Positions 2,780-8,213 of a stretch of DNA of 22,442 nt are shown here, piece after piece; the stretch's first letter is position 1, and every line of letters begins with the position of its first letter. The notes under the pieces are model-generated. The model made no database searches, was not told the DNA's origin, and was given only the letters and a program-made list of their open reading frames with translations. The stretch spans positions 1-22,442 of the IMG/VR virus record IMGVR_UViG_3300032116_001409; one strand, given 5' to 3'. The DNA is from a virus. The position numbers were made by a program, and so were the translations under genes.

Positions 2780-3112
2780 CTATGCGGGGCTTTCCCCGGA
2801 GAATCCCGGGTTGTACCGCTCGCGGTGCTCCTCTTCGCTCCATCGCTCCGCCCGCAGCTCCGCGGCGCGGCGGTATATCTCGTCGATCGGCAGGTCGACG
2901 AACTCCGGCTGGGGCGGATACTCGCGGCCGGGCCTCGGCCCTCGACGCTGGCGCGGTATATCGCGAAGCTCGTTCCGCCTCGCGTCGTAGAGCTTGCGGG
3001 CGCTGATCCCTGCGGCCGCCTGGGCCTCGGCGTCCGTCGCCCCTCGGTCCAGCTCACGCCGGACGATCCGCTCCTCCGTCTCCGTCAGGACGCGCCTACG
3101 CTTCCGCGTCAT
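2780..3112 (-). CDS. Small HTH DNA-binding protein at the early/late boundary
   Basis: This 110-aa basic protein starts [20 protein letters not shown]. Residues 10-50 look like a homeodomain-type helix-turn-helix: an [11 protein letters not shown] helix, [16 protein letters not shown], then a [10 protein letters not shown] recognition-like helix. An arginine/proline-rich linker and an acidic helical tail follow. The start overlaps the 3' end of the RusA gene by 17 bases. It lies exactly where the recombination genes end and the fibre genes begin, so either a late-gene activator or a terminase small subunit would fit. I cannot decide between them from sequence. Confidence 0.55.
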
Positions 3113-3554
3113 GGCAGGGCCTCACCTGGACGATCGTCCGCGCGGCCTCGCCTGGCTTCGCGTACCGTTTTCGGACGCGGCCGTCGACGACCTGGTCGTC
3201 GTCGAACCAGATCGCCCCGCTGTCGGTGATCGCGTCGGCCACTCCCTTCCCGAGGTTGTCCCAGTCGCAGCGCGGCGGGAACGCCGGGGCCGTTGCCCGA
3301 GGCTCGCCGGCCGCGTTTAGGTGGGACGGAGGCCGCGCGAACACCGCGAGGACCTCGAGCACGACCGGGCCGTCCGTCGGCCTGTGGCCGTTCCATCGCG
3401 CGGCAGCCGCCGCGGCGAGCTGGACCGCCTGGCGGTAGACGTGGATCGGGTGTTTCTTCTCGACGTACGCGCGGCCGTGGCCTCCTCGGGTGGAGATCTT
3501 CGGCCTCGGCTGCGGGACCGGAGGCCCCGGGATCTCGAACGTGAGCGCATCCAT
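3096..3554 (-). CDS. rusA: RusA-family Holliday junction resolvase
   Basis: This 152-aa protein carries the RusA core. An N-terminal strand (FEIPGPPVPQPRPK) is followed by a basic patch and a central metal-binding region with D97, D99 and N100 in CDWDNLGK, K103, D107 in ADAI, and the acidic D118-D120 followed by QV. The family is a dimeric, magnesium-dependent endonuclease that cuts four-way junctions, resolving recombination or branched DNA before packaging. Length is slightly above the usual ~120 aa, mainly at the C-terminus. It belongs to the early operon with the Sak4-like ATPase, SSB and initiator, and overlaps the next HTH gene. Confidence 0.9.
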   Translation of the reverse strand: MDALTFEIPGPPVPQPRPKISTRGGHGRAYVEKKHPIHVYRQAVQLAAAAAARWNGHRPTDGPVVLEVLAVFARPPSHLNAAGEPRATAPAFPPRCDWDNLGKGVADAITDSGAIWFDDDQVVDGRVRKRYAKPGEAARTIVQVRPCHDAEA

Positions 3555-4390: not shown

Positions 4391-4618
4391 TCAGCCACGA
4401 TGCCCTCCTCCCTGCGGCGTCGTCTCGCCGCGACGCCACTTGATCACCTTGGTACGCGACGCCTCGTCGCTCTCGGCCATCCTCTCGGCCAGGTGGGCCG
4501 CGCGGATCGGCTCGGCTCGCCGCGCTACCCACGGGGCAAGCGCGAGGCCGGAGATCGAGGCGGCCTCCTCCTCGGCCGGGACGGAGTCCGGCCAGTCTGG
4601 ATCGTATTCGTAGGTCAT
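4391..4618 (-). CDS. Hypothetical small early protein
   Basis: This 75-aa protein starts at ATG 4618, overlapping the TGA of the initiator gene (ATGA), so it is probably co-translated. The N-terminus is acidic (MTYEYDPDWPDSVPAEEEAA). It is followed by LALAPWVARRAEPIRAAHLA and a basic tail (TKVIKWRRGETTPQGGG). No family is recognised. Its place directly after the initiator is where phages often carry a helicase loader or small regulatory partner, but no such motif is visible. Its stop lies about 50 bases from the right cassette boundary, so the original C-terminus could have been altered by the insertion. Confidence 0.5.
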   Translation of the reverse strand: MTYEYDPDWPDSVPAEEEAASISGLALAPWVARRAEPIRAAHLAERMAESDEASRTKVIKWRRGETTPQGGGHRG

Positions 4619-5478
4619 GCGGCGCCCTCCTGTCGCAGTCGATCGGCCATAGCTCGTTTCGTCGCCTCGAATCGGGCCGCGTCGTCGCCCTGGAACGCCT
4701 GCGGCGGTCCTCGGTCATCGGTGCCGCGGTAGCCTCCCCGGGCCGGCTGGTCGCGGGCGTTGTCGAACTGGCCCCCGAGGACCTTATCAACGAAGCCCGG
4801 CGCGACGAGCTGCGGCAGCGTCACCGGATCGCGGAAGTATTTGCAGCGCGGCAGGGCCTCGATCGCCGCGAGGGCCTTCTGGAACCAGCCCTCCTCGGCC
4901 AGCCGGTCGGCGACCTTGTCGGGCGGGTCCGGGAGTTTCCACGGGCGCCCGGTCCCGGCGGCCCACGCCTGGCGGAGTGTGTCCCAGCCGGCAGGCTGGG
5001 CAGGCTCCCCACGCGCAGCCGTCCCGGGGGAAGAAGAAGAATTTCTATCTCCTCTATCCCCTCCCTCGGGGGCGCGCGGCCCCCCGGTGGGGGGCGCGCC
5101 GCCCCCCGGCGGGGGGCGCCGCGCGCCCCCGACCTTGTCGACCTGGTGGCGGACCGCCGTCAAAGCCCGTGATTTCGCGGCTTTTGCGAACCTGGAGTCC
5201 CATCCGGGGATACCAATGGTCCCATTCTCCGCGTCGATCACCAGCCAGCCGACCGTCTCGACCTGCCTCCAGAACTCCTCGTCGCCTCCGCACAGTCTCG
5301 CCAGGAGCCGGACCGACATACGGGCCGACCCGTCGGAGCTGTTTAGGGCCGCCCAGCCCCATAGCATGACGAGGCGGCCGACGACCTGGTCCGGCGCGAG
5401 GCCGGTCCGGTCGACGAGCTCGAGGACCTCGGGCTTCTGGGGGAGGCAGACGTCGTAGGGGACCCATTCACCGGCCAT
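4615..5478 (-). CDS. Phage replication initiator / replisome organiser (lambda O-like layout)
   Basis: This 287-aa protein has a winged-helix-like N-terminal domain (residues 1-105: EWVPYDVCLPQKPEVLELVD, then a VVGRLVMLWGWAAL helix and the FWRQVETVGWLVIDAENGTI wing). A Gly/Pro/Arg-rich disordered linker (about 112-165) and a C-terminal helical domain (166-287) follow. The N-terminal pattern is typical of phage DnaD- or O-like proteins that bind origin DNA, the C-terminal part usually contacting the helicase or its loader. Ribosome site GGAGGG lies 7 bases before ATG 5478. The DNA encoding the linker holds a large palindromic structure (separate entry), recalling lambda O with its embedded origin. 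Neighbours are a winged-helix protein upstream and a small unknown downstream. Confidence 0.75.
   Translation of the reverse strand: MAGEWVPYDVCLPQKPEVLELVDRTGLAPDQVVGRLVMLWGWAALNSSDGSARMSVRLLARLCGGDEEFWRQVETVGWLVIDAENGTIGIPGWDSRFAKAAKSRALTAVRHQVDKVGGARRPPPGGGAPPTGGPRAPEGGDRGDRNSSSSPGTAARGEPAQPAGWDTLRQAWAAGTGRPWKLPDPPDKVADRLAEEGWFQKALAAIEALPRCKYFRDPVTLPQLVAPGFVDKVLGGQFDNARDQPARGGYRGTDDRGPPQAFQGDDAARFEATKRAMADRLRQEGAA
5031..5130. other. Candidate replication origin inside the initiator gene
   Basis: A 12-base inverted repeat, GGGGGCGCGCGG (5068-5079) and CCGCGCGCCCCC (5119-5130), encloses two tandem hairpins of identical build: C6-GGT-G6 (5080-5094) and C6-GGC-G6 (5102-5116). Together they can fold as a cloverleaf. 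Immediately beside it (5031-5058) is an AT-rich purine/pyrimidine tract (AAGAAGAAGAATTTCTATCT), unusual in this GC-rich genome and a plausible unwinding element. Repeats plus an AT-rich flank inside the initiator's linker coding region match the plan of the lambda origin. Low-complexity Pro/Gly coding could alone produce part of the pattern. Confidence 0.45.
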
Positions 5479-6003: not shown

Positions 6004-6489
6004 TCAAAACGGAATGTCGTCGTCCGGCATCGCGGCCGCCGCGTCGGCCTTCTGTGTCGAGGTCCGCCTGGTCGTCGGCTTCGACGACGCGGCCGCCACG
6101 GGCTCGGCCGCTTCGCCTGGCAGGAACTCGCCCACGTTGACGAACGTCCGCGCCCCGGAGACCTTGTGGTACACGCGAGCGCGGACGCGCCGGCCGGCGA
6201 GGTCCGTCAACTCGAGCCCGGCAAACTGCTCGCGCGTGTAGCCGAGCGAGGTCCGCAGGCCCGACAGGATCCGCTTGCCCCAGTTGACGTTCCGCGGGAT
6301 CCGCGCGAACACCCATCCGTACCGCCGCTCCGGATGCTCCAGGCGGACCTCGACCTTCTCCTCCTCGGCGTGAATGATCACGGCGCGGATCTGAAAGTCG
6401 TGATCGCCCTCCGGTACAAGCTCACGCTCGGGAGGCCGGCTGTCGTTCGTCTCAGTCGGGAAGTCGTCGTCGAGTCCAAAATCGACCAT
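6004..6489 (-). CDS. Phage single-stranded DNA-binding protein (DUF669-like)
   Basis: This 161-aa protein has an OB-fold-like body (about residues 20-128: GDHDFQIRAVIIHAEEEKVE, FARIPRNVNWGKRILSGLRT, RRVRARVYHK). A flexible Ala/Thr/Lys linker follows, and the protein ends exactly with the acidic tip DDDIPF. That tip is the classic SSB tail that docks replication and recombination partners. The body resembles DUF669 phage proteins, which act as SSBs and commonly sit beside Sak4-type recombinases, as here. Ribosome site AGGAGA precedes ATG 6489. It coats single-stranded intermediates during replication and annealing. Confidence 0.8.
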   Translation of the reverse strand: MVDFGLDDDFPTETNDSRPPERELVPEGDHDFQIRAVIIHAEEEKVEVRLEHPERRYGWVFARIPRNVNWGKRILSGLRTSLGYTREQFAGLELTDLAGRRVRARVYHKVSGARTFVNVGEFLPGEAAEPVAAASSKPTTRRTSTQKADAAAAMPDDDIPF

Positions 6490-6729: not shown

Positions 6730-6982
6730 TCGTCGCCTCCCTTACGTTCGCGGCTGCCGCGGTCGCCCACGCGACGACCGCCTCCATGTGGTGACGGCCG
6801 TAGTGGGCGTGGCCGTAGGCCTTCTCCGGCTTGTCGAGCCCCGCGATCGCCTGGGTGACCTCGTACCGCGTCATGCGGTAGCCGGCAGCCTGCGACGCGT
6901 CGAGGAGATCCGACAGCCGGAACCAGTCGCGGGCGTGGTCTCCGCGGAGTCCGGAGAATGTCAGGTGCTCGAGGATGCTCAC
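6722..6982 (-). CDS. Hypothetical early protein, possible HTH
   Basis: This 86-aa protein starts at GTG 6982, overlapping the TGA of the ATPase gene (GTGA). The sequence LRGDHARDWFRLSDLLDASQ followed by MTRYEVTQAIAGLDKPEKAY could form a small winged or HTH unit. A His-rich turn (HAHYGRHH) and an alanine helix follow. I do not recognise a family. Translational coupling to the recombinase suggests a function in recombination or its control. Confidence 0.55.
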   Translation of the reverse strand: MSILEHLTFSGLRGDHARDWFRLSDLLDASQAAGYRMTRYEVTQAIAGLDKPEKAYGHAHYGRHHMEAVVAWATAAAANVREATNV

Positions 6983-7932
6983 GACGCGGCCTCCTTTCGC
7001 GGCTCGATCTCGTCGTGGCGCGCGTTGAGAAGATCCGTAAGCTCGGACCAGTCCTCGGTCGAGATCTCGTCGGCCGACAGAAGCTCGTCGAGCCGGCTGC
7101 CGATCTTCCCGAGCGTCCGCACGTTCGATGCTGACGCGATGTAGGCCCGGATCTGTGCCGGCAGGGGCTCGGCGGCCGGGGCCTGTGCCGTGTTGACGGC
7201 TTTTGCAGGCTGCGGAGCCACAGCCACAGGCCCCGGGGCCGAGATTCCATCAGCGAGCCAGGCCGCGAGCTGCCGGCCGAGGTCCTCGCCGGCCTCGCGG
7301 ATCACCGCGTCCTTAAGCCACGCGGCCCGCGTCTTCGTCACAACCAGGTCGTGGTCCTGGGTGACGTCGCCCACCAGCGTGAACTCGTATTCGAGTCCGT
7401 CACGCTGGACGGGCTGCATCCCCACCTTGCGGACCGTGTTCCGTCCGCCCACGTTCTCGACGACGTACTCGACCTTGCTCCGCAGCGTACAGATCACATG
7501 GAGCGGCGCCCCGAGGATCGCGTCAACCAGTTGATTGTGCCGCGGCGTCGCATCACGCCAGGCCCCGAAGTTGCCGCCCGACTGGTTCCGCTTGCCTGCC
7601 TTGTCGACGAACTCCAAAATCCCGCCCTTCCCGGCCCATGCGTGGGAAAGGCTGTCGATCACCAGGACGCTATAGCCTCCATCGACGGCGGCCGTGATCG
7701 CGGCAAGGAACCGCTCGACCTCGTAGGTCTCCAGCTCCATCACGTCGAAGTCGAGACCGCCGGCGCCGCTATAGAGCGAGGCCGAGCCGCGTTCGGTATC
7801 GATGACGGCGATCCGGCCGCCGAGGCCAGACGCGATCCGCAGTGCCGTCATCGTCTTTCCGCTGCCGGCCGGCCCGACCAGCCCGAGCCGCAGCTTCGCC
7901 GCCGATTTCGTTGCCCTTTTGAACCCAGTCAT
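6979..7932 (-). CDS. Sak4/RecA-like phage recombination ATPase
   Basis: This 317-aa P-loop ATPase starts at ATG 7932 (ATGA overlap with the upstream gene); upstream extensions are arginine-rich shadow. Walker A is GPAGSGKT at residues 20-27, IAVIDTERGSAS follows at 41-52, and Walker B is VLVIDS at 88-93. A CTLRSKVEYVV strand and QRDGLEYEFTLVGDV precede a Pro/Ala linker and a C-terminal helical segment (about 265-315). This layout matches AAA_24/Sak4-type phage proteins, RecA-core ATPases that pair with a DUF669-like SSB to promote single-strand annealing. The partner SSB lies three genes downstream. Confidence 0.8.
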   Translation of the reverse strand: MTGFKRATKSAAKLRLGLVGPAGSGKTMTALRIASGLGGRIAVIDTERGSASLYSGAGGLDFDVMELETYEVERFLAAITAAVDGGYSVLVIDSLSHAWAGKGGILEFVDKAGKRNQSGGNFGAWRDATPRHNQLVDAILGAPLHVICTLRSKVEYVVENVGGRNTVRKVGMQPVQRDGLEYEFTLVGDVTQDHDLVVTKTRAAWLKDAVIREAGEDLGRQLAAWLADGISAPGPVAVAPQPAKAVNTAQAPAAEPLPAQIRAYIASASNVRTLGKIGSRLDELLSADEISTEDWSELTDLLNARHDEIEPRKEAAS

Positions 7933-8213
7933 CGCCCACCTCCGTAGTGTTTCCGCATCTCGTCGAGCGTCACCTGGCCGGTGACGAACAGCTCGACCAT
8001 TTCCTCGCGATCCATCCGGCGGGGCGCTCCTCGCCCCGGCCGGCACGATCCATCACGACAGCCGGCATCCCGCCGGTATCCTCCGCGTCGTGATCCTCCG
8101 ACGCGGCCTTCCTTGATCGAAGCCAACCCCCAGCCGACGACGAACACGGTCGTCGCGACGATCACGCCGACGGCGAACGACAGCCACGCGGCGAGCAGGC
8201 TTTCGGCAGTCAT
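7929..8213 (-). CDS. Small single-span membrane protein
   Basis: This 94-aa protein starts at ATG 8213, overlapping the previous stop (ATGA). Residues 5-31 (LLAAWLSFAVGVIVATTVFV and following) form one confident membrane helix. A cytoplasmic-looking Gly/Arg-rich loop (about 38-66) and a soluble amphipathic tail (MDREEMVELFVTGQVTLDEM) follow. It lacks the dual-start, multi-helix form of known holins and lies in the early operon just before the recombinase, so a lysis role is doubtful. Membrane tethering or superinfection interference is possible. The C-terminal 28 residues alone could be an independent small peptide. Confidence 0.55.
   Translation of the reverse strand: MTAESLLAAWLSFAVGVIVATTVFVVGWGLASIKEGRVGGSRRGGYRRDAGCRDGSCRPGRGAPRRMDREEMVELFVTGQVTLDEMRKHYGGGR

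Follow-up and report, generated by a model that had tools for sequence, protein, structure and literature searches.

A tandem iteron array within a phrog_2509-type initiator gene is a probable replication origin of an uncultured phage

The present study suggests that IMG/VR virus record IMGVR_UViG_3300032116_001409, a partial contig of 22,442 bases analyzed here in full as the window, carries a replication origin inside its initiator gene. The part of the gene that encodes the interdomain linker contains three tandem 22-bp iterons, each of them a dyad, which adjoin a purine/AT-rich tract; selection acts on this DNA itself, and the location of the element is conserved among relatives. From these sequence comparisons, the element is very probably a phage origin of the in-gene iteron type represented by lambda ori and the RepA_N initiators. 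An initial annotation had described a candidate origin within an O-like initiator gene, placed as in lambda but built of nested hairpins. The candidate origin and its placement stand, whereas the nested-hairpin variant does not: the element almost certainly follows a known plan and is not a new, hairpin-based kind of origin. The features of the element are as follows.

4615–5478, minus strand: initiator gene, a 287-residue open reading frame (ORF) encoding an N-terminal winged-helix domain, an origin-encoded linker and a conserved C-terminal domain
5113–5129, minus strand: iteron 1, farthest from the tract; an exact consensus match with the dyad GGGGCGC-GCG-GCGCCCC
5091–5107, minus strand: iteron 2, exactly 22 bp from iteron 1; one mismatch to consensus
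5069–5085, minus strand: iteron 3, exactly 22 bp from iteron 2 and adjoining the tract; one mismatch to consensus
5028–5067, minus strand: purine/AT-rich tract, candidate DNA-unwinding element; in the gene sense GAGGGAGGGGATAGAGGAGATAGAAATTCTTCTTCTTCC

All of the elements first noted in this DNA are present. A perfect 12-base inverted repeat (GGGGGCGCGCGG at 5068–5079 and CCGCGCGCCCCC at 5119–5130) encloses two hairpins of the form C6-GGY-G6 (CCCCCCGGTGGGGGG at 5080–5094 and CCCCCCGGCGGGGGG at 5102–5116), and beside them lies an AT-rich stretch at about 5031–5058, in which 19 of 28 bases are A or T, against a regional background of about 70% GC. They do sit in the DNA that encodes the linker of the initiator, where residues 98–161 are predicted to be disordered. 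The initial annotation, however, set nested hairpins against direct iterons and missed the array: in gene orientation the element is made up of three 22-bp tandem units, each with a dyad GGGGCGC-N3-GCGCCCC. The C6-GGY-G6 hairpins are the iteron junctions, at which the right arm of one unit meets the left arm of the next, and the outer 12-base stem arises where the array's first arm pairs with its last. Independently, Tandem Repeats Finder detects a repeat of period 22 with 2.8 copies (score 94) at 5068–5130. Among 2000 synonymous recodings of the window protein, not one attained the dyad score and a single one matched the direct-repeat score. As a single strand of 110 nt the element folds strongly (z = −6.8 for the plus strand and −5.2 for the minus strand, none of 200 shuffles folding equally well), and the lowest-energy fold predicted is one long hairpin, not the cloverleaf that had been suggested. 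Within the window, a possibly incomplete contig, no further iteron array was detected. A single iteron-like palindrome, GGGGCGCTCCTCGCCCC, lies at 8021–8037 on the plus strand, with one mismatch to the consensus of the window's iteron class, and may be due to chance.

A scan of IMG/VR yielded 64 relatives of the initiator at 57–87% identity, including relatives that match most of the protein or its full length at 57–84%, and a profile scan added more. Their linkers have the same plan with different sequences. The iterons fall into three classes, namely class A, which includes the window (GGGGCGC-N3-GCGCCCC), class B (GTGCGC-N4-GCGCAC) and class C (ACGCGC-N3-GCGCGT); the classes have a common layout and all adjoin the same tract. 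Across 26 distinct linkers, self-similarity at lag 22 is 0.659, compared with 0.443 ± 0.011 when the linkers are recoded synonymously according to the codon usage of the gene concerned (z = 19), and lag 44 gives z = 16. Because 22 is not a multiple of 3, the repeat resides in the DNA and not in the protein. Class C shows no lag-22 signal, which is explained by its units stepping 21–22 bp. Comparing palindromes among relatives, a check proposed with the hairpin idea, separated the two kinds of structure. In 25 distinct class A relatives, the dyads of iterons 1, 2 and 3 keep 97, 99 and 82% of their pairs, whereas pairing is retained at only 61% in the outer stem and at 65 and 59% in the two hairpins, where no compensatory, both-sided change occurs; the iteron dyads are thus conserved and the hairpins are not. 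The consensus across relatives is GGGGCGC-N3-GCGCC(CC), with freely varying centers and spacers. Where iteron 3 has decayed, it is the left half that is lost and the tract-side half-site that is kept, which fits a binding site better than a stem. Class A relatives carry three to four iteron copies; in three of them (L030, L061 and L102) a fourth 22-bp iteron lengthens the linker peptide, comparable to the six-iteron Shiga toxin (Stx) phages.

The tract shows the same imprint. In relatives, AGAGAGARGAGATAGAGGAGATAGAAATTCTTCTTCTTCC comes after the last iteron. Over 26 genes, AGA encodes 93 of 98 tract arginines but only 4 of 650 arginines elsewhere, TCT encodes 74 of 109 tract serines as against 14 of 239, and AAT encodes all 20 tract asparagines as against 10 of 91. 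For a GC-rich gene, these codon preferences strongly indicate selection on the DNA itself, as would be expected of an unwinding element. In five class B linkers (L116, L123, L126, L127 and L134), part of the tract is read in another frame, giving EEIEEIRGDR instead of ERRDRGDR, and the DNA is still purine-rich with GATA steps; these five tracts tolerate frame changes while the DNA is kept. Judged from these comparisons, selection acts on the DNA of the palindromes and of the tract alike.

Residues 1–115 of the initiator match two PHROGs profiles annotated as replication initiation proteins, phrog_2509 (E 9.8e-21) and phrog_9474 (E 6.2e-14), and belong by profile to these YdaU-like families, which the YdaU protein of the Escherichia coli Rac prophage also matches. 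Pfam gave no match at E ≤ 0.001 and no relevant one at E ≤ 1, so that neither Phage_rep_O membership nor a RepA_N domain was found at these thresholds. By sequence, the initiator is therefore neither lambda O nor RepA_N and groups with phrog_2509 and phrog_9474. AlphaFold predicts the N-terminal domain confidently (predicted local distance difference test score, pLDDT, about 90), with a long helix at 93–115. A search of solved structures with the initiator's sequence profile returned 0 matches; in a VIA-align comparison of the predicted domain, plasmid RepA initiators ranked first (4pql, 5kbj and 4pt7; Z about 6.2 over 78 residues). The C-terminal domain is conserved among relatives.

The arrangement resembles that of lambda, in which ori lies within gene O and comprises four 18-bp inverted-repeat iterons and a high-AT region (PMC6022878). 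Iteron number varies among such origins (lambda, phi80, 82 and Stx-phage variants), from four in lambda to six in Stx phages (PMC6022878, PMC7466680). As in that plan, tandem dyad iterons lie here within the initiator gene, an easily melted AT-rich tract under DNA-level selection adjoins them, and the element sits between the predicted DNA-binding and C-terminal domains. The contrast drawn with lambda in the initial annotation does not hold, because lambda iterons are themselves inverted repeats able to form hairpins (PMC7466680, PMC6022878); the iterons of lambdoid phages all have this inverted-repeat form and give rise to the stablest hairpins in gene O (PMC7466680). The differences lie elsewhere: the initiator belongs by profile to another family, the iterons are 22 bp long and GC-rich without a central A-tract, and the tract is purine-rich. 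In RepA_N plasmid initiators of the pSK41 and pTZ2162 type, a winged-helix N-terminal domain of about 120 residues is followed by an ori-encoded linker that is dispensable, and in pSK41 this N-terminal domain binds four Rep boxes located centrally in rep (PMC5703833). The window's initiator differs from these in its sequence (about 10% identity), its box sequences and its residence in a phage instead of a plasmid.

We propose that the winged-helix domain (residues about 1–115) binds the three iterons in its own gene, probably as one dimer per site, each iteron being a 17-bp dyad with half-site GCGCCCC. The 22-bp step, about two helical turns, would set the bound dimers on one face of the DNA and create an O-some-like complex; the adjoining tract would then melt, the C-terminal domain would recruit a replicative helicase or primase, and replication would start here. 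Several observations weigh against this proposal. GC skew, suggested earlier as a check, shows no switch at 5.1 kb and gives no support for an origin from this partial contig. No helicase loader resembling lambda P or DnaC was recognized beside the initiator among the genes examined (small ORFs were scanned in part), whereas lambda and Rac each have one. Two scans of GTDB genomes for a host found no relative. Finally, the likeness to RepA, although the best among solved structures, is modest (Z about 6), and CAP-type winged helices are effectively tied with it, less than one Z unit behind (5.9 versus 6.2); the comparison shows a winged-helix domain but gives no more than a hint of RepA kinship.

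The palindromes could instead serve as a hairpin or cruciform origin, in which the 12-bp outer stem and the two C6-GGY-G6 hairpins are extruded as a nested cloverleaf and recognized as a structure. Both strands fold strongly, the stem and hairpins are perfect in the window, and iteron hairpins have been discussed for lambdoid origins (PMC7466680). Yet relatives keep 59–65% of the pairs of these structures as against 82–99% in the dyads, without compensatory change in the hairpins, the spacers between iterons are free and asymmetric, iteron 3 loses its left half and retains the tract-side one, and the lowest-energy fold is a single hairpin. We consider this explanation highly unlikely.

Iteron arrays in plasmids can also serve autoregulation of their gene or the control of copy number and incompatibility; the iterons here might be initiator sites of this sort, with replication starting elsewhere. 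The array, however, lies in the middle of the gene instead of at a promoter, its surroundings yielded no promoter-like site, and the iterons always adjoin the conserved, easily melted tract, which is the arrangement of lambda ori; nor does the window, incomplete as the contig may be, offer another array. Such a role in place of an origin seems very unlikely. Barely credible is an artefact, whether an inserted mobile palindrome or the product of GC-rich, low-complexity codons in a Pro/Gly/Arg linker. Linker composition is indeed skewed and the region GC-rich, but the failure of synonymous recodings to reproduce the repeat already contradicts such an origin of the pattern, and classes A and B share the period despite different sequences and different linker peptides. 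An interspersed genome repeat was likewise rejected, as there is no further copy in the window and no exact match to the outer arm in IMG/VR. An intrinsic terminator was considered and rejected; the palindromes lack a downstream T-run, and the sole terminator-like site of the 4.5–6.6 kb region is at 6034.

If the element is the origin, its iteron classes bear on how initiators recognize DNA. Classes A and B are found with N-terminal domains that differ at as few as three residues of the compared segment, and the number of class changes is no fewer than 10 on the N-domain tree (21–29 with shuffled labels) and 15 on the C-domain tree. Such changes among near-identical N-terminal domains imply that the origin cassette moves between otherwise similar genes. 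Two candidate specificity positions, residues 107 and 111, fall in the following segment.

5137–5163, minus strand: codons for residues 106–114 (LTAVRHQVD), where the long helix that follows the winged-helix domain ends

Among 71 distinct genes, residues 107/111 are a small residue and H in all 40 of class A, H/A in all 25 of class B, and E/N in five of six of class C, the remaining one being H/N. A tentative interpretation, which we think somewhat less probable than its alternatives, is that these two residues, one helical turn apart, set which 3–4 bp flank of the common GCG half-site is read, and that origin cassette and switch recombine together between initiators that are otherwise almost the same, changing replication (incompatibility) specificity in one step. 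The code would be small residue/H for GCGCCCC, H/A for GCGCAC and E/N for GCGCGT, and is offered solely as a testable hypothesis. The two codons lie upstream of the first iteron yet adjoin it, so plain physical linkage could produce the same match. Independent branch pairs supporting the coupling number four and three; all are concordant, and they are too few for p < 0.05.

Beyond the close family, 28 annotated phage records match the N-terminal domain only (tblastn, 28–40% identity), including Rac YdaU, TL-2011b, Xanthomonas CP2, Pseudomonas VW-6S and PAN70. The linkers of these distant proteins (about 30% identity) carry GTAACG/CGTTAC half-sites at regular steps, and the majority terminate in CGTTACC[AT]A[GA]AG... 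purine tracts. A generic lag test was mostly negative because the half-sites alternate in orientation, and half-site count was used instead: in 16 of 17 distant genes tested, no more than 20 of 1000 synonymous recodings attain the observed value, and the exception, Vibrio phage 1.211, has no such half-sites. The long purine run of most distant relatives shows no excess over synonymous recoding, so that the tract is strongly supported in the close family only. YdaU/phrog_2509 proteins thus share with the window's initiator a homologous N-terminal domain and an equivalent in-gene layout, with half-sites usually ending at an AGAG purine tract. They differ in half-site (GCGTTAC versus GCGCCCC), in step (about 11–13 bp versus full 22-bp units) and in their unrelated C-terminal domains, for example DnaT-like ones. 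In E. coli Rac, ydaU (L075) contains a GTAACGC-N5-GCGTTAC palindrome and an extra GCGTTACC abutting AGAGGAAGAGGAAGAGGAAGATATAAATA. Rac has an active origin, oriJ (PMC3945230), and we infer that oriJ may be this half-site element within ydaU.

The following genes, also on the minus strand, were noted elsewhere in the window. A Sak4-like single-stranded DNA-annealing ATPase (AAA_24; 6979–7932) and a RusA-like Holliday junction resolvase (3096–3554) form a recombination module around the initiator, near the putative origin. The 161-residue protein of 6004–6489 has the acidic terminal sequence MPDDDIPF, which resembles the tip of single-strand DNA-binding proteins, and has no PHROGs or Pfam match at the thresholds used. 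A probable tail-fiber protein with collagen-like GPxG repeats is encoded at 1107–2450, and its gene contains tandem repeats of period 9, 18 and 45 at 2008–2216.

Collectively, the comparative evidence would narrow the origin of this uncultured phage lineage down to some 100 bp, and it corrects the idea that this element is hairpin-based. It also suggests that the plan of an origin inside the initiator gene, known from lambda and RepA_N, extends across the phrog_2509/YdaU initiators, including that of the E. coli Rac prophage. Moreover, near-identical DNA-binding domains paired with three iteron sequences would constitute a natural specificity-swap series, which makes the DNA-recognition code of these initiators directly testable.
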